A DNA stretch of 64,000 nucleotides, taken from Bacteroidota bacterium (GTDB lineage: Bacteria; Bacteroidota; Bacteroidia; 2-12-FULL-35-15). A program made the position numbers and the translations under genes. Positions 11,881 through 51,490 of this stretch are shown here, piece by piece. Each line of letters starts with the position of its first letter. Position 1 is the first letter of the stretch. A model generated the notes under the pieces. It was not told where the DNA came from and did no database searches. It was given only the letters and a program-made list of their open reading frames with translations. The stretch lies in assembly GCA_947469885.1 (NCBI GenBank), contig CANIQT010000005.1, forward strand, positions 62,001 to 126,000, written 5' to 3'.

Positions 11881-11928
11881 GTGCGGTGCGGTGCGGTGCG
11901 GTGCGGTGCGGTGCGGTGCGGTGCGGTA
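11881..11928. repeat. (GTGCG)n perfect pentanucleotide repeat, ~9.5 copies
   Basis: gtgcggtgcggtgcg... uninterrupted for 48 nt. Confidence 0.97.
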
Positions 11929-12119: not shown

Positions 12120-12277
12120 CAACCACCAACAATTGACACCAAAGTTTGAATGTTTGCCACCAAAGTTTGGCACTTTGTCATGAAAGTTTGAAACATTGAA
12201 GCCAAAGTTTGAATGTTTGACACCAAAGTTTGGAACTTTGACATGAAAGTTTGAATGTTTGGCACCAAAGGACGTGT
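12120..12277 (+). repeat. 21-bp tandem array, locus 1 (consensus AAAGTTTGrAwsTTTGrCAcc)
   Basis: AAAGTTT at 12141, 12162, 12183, 12204, 12225, 12246 and AAAGGAC at 12267: exactly 21 bp apart each. Confidence 0.95.
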
Positions 12278-12402
12278 AATGGTTTTTTGGGGAATTTTTT
12301 TAAACTATTCTTTAAATTATGATACAATTTGTAGATTCTTCCTTGTATATTAATAAAGAGGCACTCTATTTTTTTAATCTTAGAGGTGTGTATTGAATCG
12401 GG

Positions 12403-12879
12403 TTAGTGGGTTTTAACTTTCTGTAATTTTTTTTCCAGTGTTTTTATTTTTTCTTCCAGGTCACCAATATGCTTATTTTTCAATTTTGCTAACTCGTCTG
12501 TTTTTTCTAGTTCCGATTCGAGGTGTTTAATTAACTTTTCGGAAGATTGCACTTTGTATTTCAAAAACACGATGCTCTCCGTACTTTCGGCAGGTGATAG
12601 GTTTTCGGGGTTTTCGGATGTTGGTTGTGTAACTTCTGAACTAGAAACAAACATTGGCAATTCGCCCTGCTCTATGTATTTTCTGTTCACATTATAAATA
12701 TCTATAATTTTATCAATCAGTTTTCTCCCTGCATTCGATTTGTTATTCAAAATCATATTGATTGTTGGCTGACGGTAGCCCAATTTGTCTGAAAATTGGG
12801 ATTCGTTATCAACAATTTTATTTTTTAATAGGTTTTTGTAAACCTCCGAAACCCTTTTATTTATTGATTTTTTGTCCAT
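12403..12879 (-). CDS. XRE-like HTH regulator with C-terminal coiled coil
   Basis: SQFSDKLGYRQPTINMILNNKSNAGRKLIDKIIDIYNV = HTH; C-terminal EKLIKHLESELEKTDELAKLKNKHIGDLEEKIKTLEKKL coiled coil. Confidence 0.85.
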   Translation of the reverse strand: MDKKSINKRVSEVYKNLLKNKIVDNESQFSDKLGYRQPTINMILNNKSNAGRKLIDKIIDIYNVNRKYIEQGELPMFVSSSEVTQPTSENPENLSPAESTESIVFLKYKVQSSEKLIKHLESELEKTDELAKLKNKHIGDLEEKIKTLEKKLQKVKTH

Positions 12880-13128: not shown

Positions 13129-13800
13129 ATGATTAACTATTCCAAAACCATCGTATTTTACAACATCTATCTTACATTAATGATTCCTTATGCTATTGTG
13201 GCTGCAACCGCCACTCGGCTTGGATTAACAGCACAACAGGTTACCGATTTAACAGCGTTTCAAACCGCATGGGGTCCAACAATGCTGGCTTATTTATCTC
13301 CCCTTACTTACGGGCGATTGACAACGGCACAAATAAATGCACTTTATCGTGCTGTTAAATTATATTGTGACGGATTGAAACAACAGTTGAAAAACAATCC
13401 CGCGCTAACGCTTACAGAAGCGGATTACATTTATTTTGACATTCATAAAGATGTGGCACCAAGGGCTCATATTCCTGCTCCTACAGCCGAAGCTAGTGTG
13501 GTTTTAAAAGCGGCAAATCATCTTAACAATGAATATAGAGTTTCGGATATTGCTAACCCTACAAAAGCAGGAAAACCTAAAGATGTTAAAAAAGTAATTG
13601 TTTTTTTGGTTGTGTTTTCGGCATCGGCAACTCCGCCAACTCATGACGACATGAGAGAAGAAATGGAAGTAGGTTCAATGAATTTTGATATTCCATTTAC
13701 CGAAGACCAAATTGGTAAAATTGCTTATGTGTGTGTATGTTTCGCTAACGATAGCGGTCGTGGAAATATGTCTCCGATTATTGCAAGCCCGATAATATAA
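13129..13800 (+). CDS. uncharacterised ~223 aa protein (helical N-terminal region, FN3-like C-terminus); cassette 1
   Basis: Long ORF with A-rich leader and terminator; ends GNMSPIIASPII, resembling the G.(W)SP..S ending of the cassette 2 and 3 proteins. Confidence 0.7.
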   Translation: MINYSKTIVFYNIYLTLMIPYAIVAATATRLGLTAQQVTDLTAFQTAWGPTMLAYLSPLTYGRLTTAQINALYRAVKLYCDGLKQQLKNNPALTLTEADYIYFDIHKDVAPRAHIPAPTAEASVVLKAANHLNNEYRVSDIANPTKAGKPKDVKKVIVFLVVFSASATPPTHDDMREEMEVGSMNFDIPFTEDQIGKIAYVCVCFANDSGRGNMSPIIASPII

Positions 13801-34156: not shown

Positions 34157-34564
34157 ATGCAGATTAAAACGATTACTATTATTGGAGATTCGACAAAAGA
34201 TGTGTTCAAACAATTGCGCGATGAAGCCGACAGACTTATGCAAAGTGATGCAATATTAATTGATTTTGGAATTCATATTACTCAGCCTGTAACTGCTGAT
34301 TATGCGCATTTGCAGGCGGATACTGCGCAGGATGAATTATTGAGAATTCGTTGTGTGCAAGATGGGTTGAACGAAAACCAAACTGATAAATTAAAGTTTT
34401 ATTGCAAAGGTTGGCCGCACCAAAAAATTGCTTTAAGATTTTATGTTACTCCCAAAACAATAACATCAGTTTTGAAAAGGGCTCGTAAAAAATCGGGAAG
34501 AAAAACGCTTGAAAAGCTAAAAGAGTTTTTGGTGGGGGCAGGTGGCGGAGCCAAGAATCCTTAA
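34157..34564 (+). CDS. LuxR-like HTH protein; cassette 2
   Basis: C-terminal LNENQTDKLKFYCKGWPHQKIALRFYVTPKTITSVLKRARKK; Met at 34157 (MQIKTITIIG) preferred to 34094. Confidence 0.65.
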   Translation: MQIKTITIIGDSTKDVFKQLRDEADRLMQSDAILIDFGIHITQPVTADYAHLQADTAQDELLRIRCVQDGLNENQTDKLKFYCKGWPHQKIALRFYVTPKTITSVLKRARKKSGRKTLEKLKEFLVGAGGGAKNP

Positions 34565-34689
34565 ACCATTGATATTACTGCATTGCAACGATATACTATT
34601 TTAGTAATTGCCCCTATATTTTTTTTCTAACCTTTATACGTTTTGTAATTTTGTATCCGAAATAGTTCATTAAAAAGGATGTATGTGCC

Positions 34690-35010
34690 AAAATTCGAAC
34701 ATTGTTTATCAATGTTTACAAGGGTTTTATCAAAGTTCGGGAAGATTTGATGAAAGTTCGGGACTTTTTGCCAAAAGTTCGGGAACTTTTGATAAAAGTT
34801 CGGGAACTTTTGATGAAAGTTCGGGAACAATAAAACAAAGTTCCGGAACATTAAGGCAAAGTTCGGGAACAATGGAACAAAGTTCAGGAACAATTGACAA
34901 AAGTTCGGGAACTTTTGGCTAAAAGTACCGAACAATGACGGAAACTTCCTGAACTTTGATAAAAACTTCCCGAATGATGACAAACATATTGGGAACAAAA
35001 GGGAAAACAT
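34690..35010 (+). repeat. 21-bp tandem array, locus 2 (core AAAGTTCGGGAACnnTTGAnn), ~15 units
   Basis: Unit starts at 34690, 34711, 34732, 34753, 34774, 34795, 34816, 34837, 34858, 34879, 34900, 34921, 34942, 34963, 34984: constant 21-bp phase, outer units degenerate. Confidence 0.97.
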
Positions 35011-35143
35011 AATGATTAATAAGCAAAATGTAACGAATGACGGAAAAAAAATACTGAACATTGAAAAAAAAAGAATACAAAAAGCAAAAGAATTACTGAA
35101 CAATAATAAATAAGTACCAACAAATAACTAAAACCAAATTATC

Positions 35144-35817
35144 ATGAGAGAAATCATTAATTGTAAAAGAGAATTTTCGGGACTTGCTGAAGACAAACGC
35201 CCAGCTTATTTAATAAGAATGGGAGCTGCATTAACACTTAATGCAGGTGTTTTTCCTGATATTCCGTATGCAGGAAGTGTTATCACGGCAGATGCATTAG
35301 TTTTGCTTGGTTTGCTTGGCGTTAAAGATGCAAGCGATGCAAACATGACAGCTTATAATTCCGGGCTTGCAGCAATTATAGCCAAGGTAGAGAAAACTAT
35401 GACGACATTGACCTTGTGGCGCAAGGTGATGCACTAATAGTGGCAAAAGCAGGAGTAAACGGAACGAGTGGAAACACTACCAGAACAGGGATACCCGGAG
35501 AACCTGAAAATTTAAAATTTGAATTTGCACCTGGAGCGGGTGATATATTTTTGACCCGCGAAGTAGATAAAATTGCAATGGGAAGTGTGATTGTTACGTT
35601 TACCGACCCTGATATAACAGTGGTAAAAAGCGCAAACACTCAATTAAAAATTACAACTGCTGATGGCAAATTTATTTTTGTGGATGTGGTAACGGTAATT
35701 AAGGCTCTTATCCAATCTCAACAAAAGAAAAGTGAAATAATGTCGGTGGTTGCTAATTTTAATCCTAACGGACTTTCGCCAATTGCAAGTCCTACACCAG
35801 CTGTGGTGCCGAGATAA
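35144..35817 (+). pseudogene. ~224 aa protein, cassette 2, interrupted by an apparent 1-nt deletion near 35390-35400
   Basis: Frame 1 MREIINCKREF...AAIIAKVE, then -1 frame NYDDIDLVAQGDALIVAKAGVNGTSG...GLSPIASPTPAVVPR; together they give a continuous helical + FN3-like protein. Confidence 0.7.
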
Positions 35818-49502: not shown

Positions 49503-50198
49503 CTACACTGTACCGGTAACAGTTATACTTTGTTCTTCGCTCCAAAGTCCCACTACCACATCTTTGTAAATATAAATCATTTTGTATTTCCATACTTTTG
49601 AAACTCCTGATGCAGGAAGAGTGGTAGTATCAATATATTCAGGACTAAATACTTTGTCATGTTTTTTCCATCCTGCACCGTCTCCGCTGTCTTTCCATAT
49701 TTCCACTCCCTGATATTCGCCTTTTACCCACACTAATTTCGGATGATTTTCTCTTCCTGTCGAAACTTTGAATGTTGGAGTTCCTTCATCGGGGTTGAAA
49801 CTACCTGGTACTTTGAGCACTCCCAATGCACGGGCAGCATCGGTATTAAAATTTCTGCTGCGTTTTGCATCCTGAATAATTTCAGCAAGTAAACCAGCCA
49901 CATCCGGGTTGTCGGGCTGGTCGGGCACTGTGCCCAATGCCGGCAACGGAGGAAAAGGTGTTAACACCTCTGTTCCGTTACCTATTACTATATCTTTGTG
50001 TTCTGTCAACGATTTGGCATAATCGTGATAAATCACATTTTTGTTGAACACAAAACTATAATAAGTACTTCCTTTTTTAATTTGTTCAATTTTTCCTGCA
50101 TTCAAGCTAAGCGAACTTGAATAACTATCAATATTGGAACAAAAAGTTTCTAATTGTGTTTTAAGACCGGAGTCTGTACTAGCGATAAATGTCTCCAT
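49503..50198 (-). CDS. uncharacterised ~231 aa protein, FN3-like C-terminus; cassette 3
   Basis: Helical N-terminus; C-terminal YQGVEIWKDSGDGAGWKKHDKVFSPEYIDTTTL...YKMIYIYKDVVVGLWSEEQSITVTG resembles FN3-type folds. Confidence 0.75.
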   Translation of the reverse strand: METFIASTDSGLKTQLETFCSNIDSYSSSLSLNAGKIEQIKKGSTYYSFVFNKNVIYHDYAKSLTEHKDIVIGNGTEVLTPFPPLPALGTVPDQPDNPDVAGLLAEIIQDAKRSRNFNTDAARALGVLKVPGSFNPDEGTPTFKVSTGRENHPKLVWVKGEYQGVEIWKDSGDGAGWKKHDKVFSPEYIDTTTLPASGVSKVWKYKMIYIYKDVVVGLWSEEQSITVTGTV

Positions 50199-50269
50199 TG
50201 TTTTTAGATTTTATTGTTTGTTATTGTTATTATTTGTTGATTATTAGACTTTTATATAATTTATACCAA

Positions 50270-50530
50270 CTTGGGGAACTTTCCCTGAACCTTCTAGAAC
50301 TTTCCCCGAAGCTTTGGGAACTTTCCGCGAACCTTCAGCAACTTTCCCCGAACCTTCGGGAACTTTCCGCGAACCTTCGGGGAACTTTCCGCGAACCTTC
50401 AGCAACTTTCCCCGAACCTTCAGCAACTTTCCGCGAACTTGGAAAAAGCTGAAAAATGAGTTTGGGAACTTTCCCTGAACCTTCAGGAACTTTCCAATAA
50501 GTCAACAAAACAACTTGCCGAACTCCCATA
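50270..50530 (-). repeat. 21-bp tandem array, locus 3 (minus-strand consensus AAAGTTCCCGAAGGTTCGsGG), ~11 units
   Basis: AACTTTCC at 50277, 50298, 50319, 50340, 50361, 50383, 50404, 50425, 50467, 50488 (degenerate unit at 50446): 21-bp steps with one 22-bp step. Confidence 0.96.
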
Positions 50531-50671: not shown

Positions 50672-51118
50672 TTAAAACAAATTTTCTCCTTTTCTTTTTC
50701 CGGTAATGATAAAACGTGCGTCATCAGTAAATTCTACGCCCAACAGCTTTCTCATTTTGCGGAGGTGTTTGTTTGCAGTGTTTAGTTTTATTCCCAATTC
50801 GCTTTCAATGTTTTTTAGCTGAATTCCCCTCTCTAGAGCCAACATTACGTTGGTTGCCATCATGGGGACTTTTTTAATCCAACATAGTTTTATGAAGTAG
50901 TCTGTTTGCACCCATTTTAGGTAATCTGCCTCCGAAGGCAAATCAGGAATGAGCATGCAATACGCTCCGTTGTCCCACAATTTTTTGTCAGGAGCGGTGG
51001 TGTTTAGCGCATCTTCTGCATTTTTCCATTTGATGTCGTCTTTTTTGCCCTTCATTTTTCGAATGCCAGTCATGTACATTTTGTTGTTAAACACAATAAT
51101 TAGTTTTGGTTTTTTCAT
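50672..51118 (-). CDS. HTH (LuxR-like) DNA-binding protein; cassette 3
   Basis: ALERGIQLKNIESELGIKLNTANKHLRKMRKLLGV. Confidence 0.65.
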   Translation of the reverse strand: MKKPKLIIVFNNKMYMTGIRKMKGKKDDIKWKNAEDALNTTAPDKKLWDNGAYCMLIPDLPSEADYLKWVQTDYFIKLCWIKKVPMMATNVMLALERGIQLKNIESELGIKLNTANKHLRKMRKLLGVEFTDDARFIITGKRKGENLF

Positions 51119-51450
51119 TTTCTTATTTTTTTTAGATGAATAATAATTTCATCCTAAAAATAAAAAAAGGTAGAAAAATGAAAACACAAAAAAATGAGTA
51201 TCCTACAATTGACCCAAAAACCCTTTTCCCTTCACCTTTTTCTGAAAAATTGAAAAAACCTCCATAGGTATTTTCAAAATCCAATCTTAGTTTTATATTA
51301 TCCCACCCAAAATCCCCACTTGTTTTATCCCATTTTTTGCAATTGGAGTTATTAACATTTGATAGGCATAACCATATTGGGATTTAAAAAATTCGAATTA
51401 ATTACCCAAAGCATTGATTTTATTAGATTATATATGTTTTCCGTTTTTTA

Positions 51451-51490
51451 AAAAGTTTACAAAAGTTTACAAAAGTTTACAAAAGTTTAC
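51451..51490. repeat. 10-bp tandem array (AAAAGTTTAC)x4
   Basis: Four perfect head-to-tail copies. Confidence 0.97.

Follow-up and report, generated by a model that had tools for sequence, protein, structure and literature searches.

Within the 64,000-nucleotide stretch of a Bacteroidota genome that was analysed here (contig CANIQT010000005.1 of assembly GCA_947469885.1; hereafter the window), the interval between the gene for a small HTH protein and another small gene is filled by tandem DNA repeats of 21 bp. The question that this locus raises is what kind of element such an array represents, and whether it is its period, its sequence, or an RNA or a peptide made from it that matters.

The 21-bp Array at Locus 2 and Similar Modules in the Window

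The array at this locus (locus 2) is made up of 15 units of 21 bp, which are in register when the sequence is cut at 21-bp steps from 34690 (last row 34984–35004). The core AAAGTTCGGGAAC is common to the rows from 34732 to 34900, and the central units are near identical, whereas the outer rows are degenerate yet in register. Over 34690–35010 the sequence has a self-identity of 0.68 at a lag of 21, compared to 0.278 ± 0.025 in 1000 shuffles and 0.290 ± 0.046 in the remainder of the window, and the array is independently detected by TRF at 34725–34926. The original prediction for this DNA, of about 15 units in perfect register with near-identical units in the centre and degenerate but in-register units at the flanks, is thus borne out by the row alignment, the lag-21 identity and TRF. 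The extent that it gave (34690–35010) is also correct for these units, but the rhythm is in fact longer, as a weaker, degenerate 21-bp periodicity spans from about 34654 to about 35123 and nearly reaches the ATG at 35144. Similarly, the gene that was predicted to begin at 35144 is present, but it is not an intact single ORF, as a frameshift near 35,395 splits one gene into two. This frameshift falls in an A-rich stretch and indicates either a pseudogene or an assembly error. The units of locus 2 are contiguous, with no unique spacers of the CRISPR kind between the repeats.

The window carries three such modules, each consisting of a 21-bp array, an adjoining small DNA-binding gene and a gene for a protein of about 225 aa. 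The parts of these modules are as follows.

Locus 1, 12133–12279 (no strand): tandem array with the unit TTGACACCAAAGTTTGAAACT, about 7 copies
Locus 1, 12403–12879 (−): HTH_3-like coiled-coil protein, encoded between array and small gene
Locus 1, 13129–13800 (+): small P1-family gene (223 aa), the third part of the module
Locus 2, 34157–34564 (+): small HTH protein, upstream neighbour of the array, whose C-terminus weakly matches sigma-70 region 4
Locus 2, 34646–34653 (+): TAATTTTG, which fits the −7 promoter element of Bacteroidetes (TAnnTTTG), shortly before the array
Locus 2, 34690–35010 (no strand): main 21-bp tandem array, 15 units with the core AAAGTTCGGGAAC
Locus 2, 35144–35817 (+): small P2-family gene, frameshifted near 35,395, seen as two overlapping ORFs (35144–35437 and 35416–35817)
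Locus 3, 49503–50198 (−): small P3-family gene (231 aa), predicted to have N-terminal helices and a C-terminal Fn3 domain (AlphaFold2, mean pLDDT 92)
Locus 3, 50268–50497 (no strand): tandem array, units GGAAAGTTCCCCGAAGGTTCG-like on the gene strand
Locus 3, 50672–51118 (−): LuxR-like HTH protein, upstream of the array

Two other short repeats were observed in the window, viz. a perfect GTGCG pentanucleotide repeat (9.4 copies, 11881–11927) near locus 1, and a 10-bp repeat, TTTACAAAAG (4.5 copies, 51447–51490), just past the locus 3 regulator.

The Small Proteins of the Modules

The proteins encoded at 13129, 35144, and 49503 (referred to as P1, P2, and P3, respectively) had no confident match in Pfam, NCBIfam, PHROG or PADLOC. 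Each of them is multi-copy in the window's genome, where two intact homologues of P2 (225 and 224 aa) are found elsewhere. In the AlphaFold2 model of P3, two long N-terminal helices and some shorter ones are followed by a C-terminal beta sandwich, which in structure comparison of this predicted model matches fibronectin type III (Fn3) domains (best E 8e-5); no structural match was found for the helical part. The single-sequence model of P1 was unusable (pLDDT 35), and a common superfamily for P1 and P3 was rejected, as their profile comparison by hhalign was not significant. P2 and P3 are unrelated in sequence and yet they co-occur, as P2 was found in four of the 22 congeners searched and each of these four genomes was also P3-positive. 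A phage, plasmid or viral origin of the modules was rejected, the searches for it having given no matches. Truncated second P1-type coding copies are present directly 3′ of the full gene at L167:11547–11744 and L169:3548–3883, and a decayed module, in which a short array adjoins what is left of a P1-type gene (26 aa), is seen at L186:17610–17680 and L030.

Conservation of the Period and Variation of the Unit

Relatives of these genes were drawn from the window's genome, its congeners and a collection that included Flavobacterium, Verrucomicrobia, Methylococcales, and Zoogloea. When lags from 9 to 40 were scanned, a lag of exactly 21 was the strongest upstream of 76 of the 92 homologues, where about three are expected by chance, the 92 loci including orthologues and recent paralogues and hence not all being independent. 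Arrays with diverged units are also among those led by lag 21. The same lag was leading in 9 of 12 further family genes from Verrucomicrobia, Flavobacterium and other records, and additional P2-family genes in other genomes, where the upstream sequence sufficed, also have 21-bp arrays. Homologous loci lacking the repeats had been named as evidence that would speak against the original prediction; homologues across phyla in fact retain the 21-bp array.

In contrast to the period, the sequence of the unit varies from locus to locus, orthologues included. For example, the units at the P2 locus of the window are AAAGTTCGGGAAC, whereas those at a P2 orthologue from another species are GTGCACCAAAAAGTG. 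A universal core, AAnSnTT, had in-sample support (3.71 vs. 2.78 ± 0.08 bits) and partial cross-validation, but it did not hold up in 11 arrays that had been held out (mean z 0.10 ± 0.36) and it is therefore not claimed. The in-sample signal was probably produced by shared descent. A division of the units into a conserved core and a spacer was also rejected, as the columns showed only a weak autocorrelation (0.08 vs. −0.04). Four loci with related small XRE regulators (L034, L041, L042, and L062) have arrays that share an AAATSATTT-like core, the remainder of the unit being different, and this likeness may come from shared descent. Additionally, in some units of the L097 and L022 arrays a segment of about 10 bp is reverse-complemented at the same register (e.g., GATAGTGGTA vs. 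TACCACTATC).

Distribution of the Arrays

A survey of 860 kb from the window's genome yielded 49 tandem arrays with a length of 70 bp or more. The period is a multiple of 21 in 41 of them, and all but one of these (40/41) are intergenic. About 30 of the 41 are not beside a recognised family gene. Many of these precede other proteins of 210–320 aa, which on visual inspection begin with helices and resemble Fn3, Ig or PEGA towards the C-terminus; others are solo, several of them being located between convergent genes. Solo arrays between convergent genes, with no adjacent family gene, are seen at L150, L160:18627, L176:15291, L177, L184, and L185 (G000). Some solo arrays are very homogeneous (e.g., L185, 93% match), and higher-order repeats of 42, 63, and 84 bp are found within arrays.

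Among the relatives, the three family-bearing genomes that were sampled had 13 arrays in 318 kb, whereas no multiple-of-21 array was detected in 400 kb from four family-free genomes. Similarly, no arrays were found in 80 kb from one relative with few family copies. In stretches from Verrucomicrobium, Flavobacterium, and Methylobacter, four of the six multiple-of-21 arrays adjoin family genes. Several family genes are located at contig ends (L032, L040, L047, and L059); short-read assemblies are therefore probably interrupted at the arrays, so that too few copies are counted. The number of such arrays in a genome may be well above 100.

Dyad Symmetry of the Units

The dyad that was predicted in the core of locus 2 is supported by an axis score greater than that of column-permuted units (p = 0.015, against a null that is inflated by AA/TT richness). 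As column permutation inflates dyads through this richness, it was replaced by dinucleotide-preserving shuffles, beyond which 19 of the 55 arrays have significant dyad symmetry (p < 0.05; Fisher 9e-20). The dyads replicate in held-out family arrays (Fisher 8e-4) and they are weaker in non-family arrays (Fisher 0.018). The top covariation axis is also the static pairing axis in 13 of the 55 arrays, where 2.6 are expected. Within the dyad pairs there is no excess of G-U over A-C (107 vs. 130), and the RNA folding bias is equal on both strands. With no preference for a strand or for G-U, the symmetry is more readily explained by a dimer-binding site in DNA than by an RNA hairpin.

Adjoining Regulators and Position of the Promoter Motif

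In 15 of 42 loci, the far-side gene, i.e., the nearest one beyond the array, encodes a protein with a DNA-binding or sigma domain; this unbiased count leaves out three hand-added proteins from a regulator set of 45. Most of these regulators belong to the XRE class and the others are of the LuxR, LytTR, TetR, AraC, and ECF sigma classes. No regulator family was present among the matches listed for 38 length-matched control ORFs. The linkage is strongly enriched but not universal, as most loci are without a recognisable regulator adjoining the array. The LuxR-like gene of locus 3 has a single homologue in 36 related genomes, which is found next to the orthologues of the array and the small gene (L061/L228). 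This regulator is found in only 2 of 37 genomes, each time together with its array and small gene. The suggestion that the array has a neighbouring HTH protein as its partner is thus partly supported, as far-side regulators are frequent, but it does not apply to all loci, and the HTH protein of locus 2 itself (34157–34564) had no convincing relative among 36 related genomes.

The full Bacteroidetes promoter motif has eight matches in 8.1 kb of sequence just upstream of the arrays, and none in either 12.6 kb of arrays or the 5.2 kb between arrays and start codons. The presence of this motif upstream (at locus 2, TAATTTTG at 34646–34653) suggests that the array may be transcribed within the leader. 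For an array behind the promoter, repression or a roadblock would be more likely than activation.

Possible Functions of the Arrays

A length of 21 bp corresponds to two helical turns of DNA. The simplest account of the period, the dyads, the strand neutrality and the linked regulators is that each array would be a locus-private operator array, composed of dimer sites on the same face of the DNA, which would control the adjoining helical-Fn3 gene. Judged from the sequences, we put this somewhat below an even chance. Each dyad-symmetric unit of 21 bp would be bound by a dimeric protein, in many cases the regulator across the array, and the two-turn spacing would stack 8–20 such dimers along one face of the DNA. 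Due to this stacking, binding could be cooperative even to degenerate units, and the bound dimers would switch the neighbouring small gene. As the gain or loss of whole units keeps the phase, an array could grow, shrink and drift in sequence with its period retained. Same-face sites at two-turn spacing were part of the original prediction; the dyads and the 21-bp period are kept in homologues, and this pattern extends far beyond the one locus that was described there. Several observations count against an operator. The array may lie in the leader, which is unusual for an activator's operator, and a 10–20-fold operator exceeds what regulation needs. The loci without a regulator, the roughly 30 of 41 arrays away from family genes, the failure of AAnSnTT and the weak core and spacer blocking are also against it.

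It is also conceivable, but unlikely, that the 21-bp rhythm alone matters. Any two-turn repeat would then give phased, curved DNA that serves to organise or mark loci, and its binder would be either a nucleoid-type protein of general function or the helical-Fn3 protein. The retention of the period while the sequence is free, the existence of solo arrays without genes, and the co-presence or co-absence of arrays and protein family in the sampled relatives are consistent with this explanation. In addition, by the wedge model the periodic 21-bp sequences are more curved than aperiodic ones for all 55 arrays. However, permuting the columns of the units did not significantly lower the curvature, and selection for extra curvature was thus rejected. 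Further, curvature alone cannot account for the dyad symmetry, and the N-terminal domain of P3 is without a solved DNA-binding relative.

A module that acts at the RNA level, in which a transcribed repeat RNA controls or neutralises the downstream small protein in the manner of type III toxin–antitoxin systems, is distinctly unlikely. The order of the parts is alike (a promoter-like motif, private tandem repeats, and a small gene) and the palindromic units fold better as RNA than column-permuted units. However, an array of RNA hairpins is disfavoured by the G-U and A-C counts and by the strand neutrality described above. Additionally, no terminator-like site was found between array and gene at locus 2 (34500–35200), the window had no Rfam match, the predicted fold of P3 (helices and Fn3) is not that of an endoribonuclease, no PADLOC match was obtained, and solo arrays occur.

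The possibility that the arrays are functionless but persistent by-products of slippage or unequal crossover, perhaps because palindromic units slip easily, is highly doubtful. Slippage can be promoted by inverted repeats, and both the higher-order repeats of 42, 63, and 84 bp and the homogeneous solo arrays in the window's genome are in accordance with such an origin. However, slippage would not fix one period over several phyla, and degenerate old arrays keep 21. Outside the window's class, moreover, the sampled arrays mostly adjoin family genes, and the sampled sister genomes are without arrays. Lastly, it is hardly credible that the unit encodes a repeat peptide of seven residues: although 21 bp make seven codons, and ORFs at 34683–34922 (+) and 34627–35103 (−) cross the locus 2 array, in 29 of 66 arrays all six frames are closed, and no strand is preferred.

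Comparison with Known Systems and Significance

At the ptx and fha promoters of Bordetella, dimers of the LuxR-family protein BvgA bind head-to-head sites with a spacing of 22 bp on one face of the DNA, weak and degenerate sites are tolerated, and one regulator serves many promoters with 3–6 sites (PMC7250471). The arrays described here resemble those of BvgA in having dyad-symmetric sites at two-turn spacing, as read from sequence, but they differ in their 8–20 near-tandem sites, locus-private units, many regulator classes and many paralogous modules per genome. In the type III toxin–antitoxin systems (ToxIN, CptIN, and TenpIN), the antitoxin repeats act as RNA pseudoknots, a Rho-independent terminator separates them from the gene, and this gene encodes an endoribonuclease (PMC5086642). 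In both cases a small gene is directly preceded by tandem repeats specific to the locus, whereas the strand-neutral symmetry, the lack of a terminator at locus 2, and the predicted helical and Fn3 structure of P3, which is not a ToxN/AbiQ fold, set the present modules apart.

Archaeal Borg elements contain many rapidly evolving tandem repeats, which are perfect, of variable unit length and about half of them in genes (PMC9879509). The arrays studied here are similarly numerous per genome, rapidly evolving and, like part of the Borg repeats, intergenic, but they have a fixed period of 21, imperfect units and an almost entirely intergenic location (40/41). Intergenic tandem arrays are also described from environmental genomes of lake Planctomycetota, with no fixed period or linked gene family mentioned in the part of that account considered here (PMC9426551). 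A search of the open-access literature found no description of fixed-period, locus-private arrays tied to gene families such as these. The likely mechanism is one of a known sort, but the system as a whole could not be placed in a known kind. We consider the chances to be even that it represents an undescribed, horizontally spread, many-copy module, comprised of a helical-Fn3-type protein and a private array of two-turn period, often with its own regulator.

It is unusual for a DNA element to keep its period, and not its sequence, across phyla. Such an element provides a natural test of the constraint that helical phasing places on regulatory DNA and of the divergence of operator–regulator pairs, and an unnamed group of proteins with up to tens of copies per genome gains an experimental handle. 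Should each array have a binder of its own, the arrays would also amount to a ready-made collection of orthogonal operators with cooperative binding.
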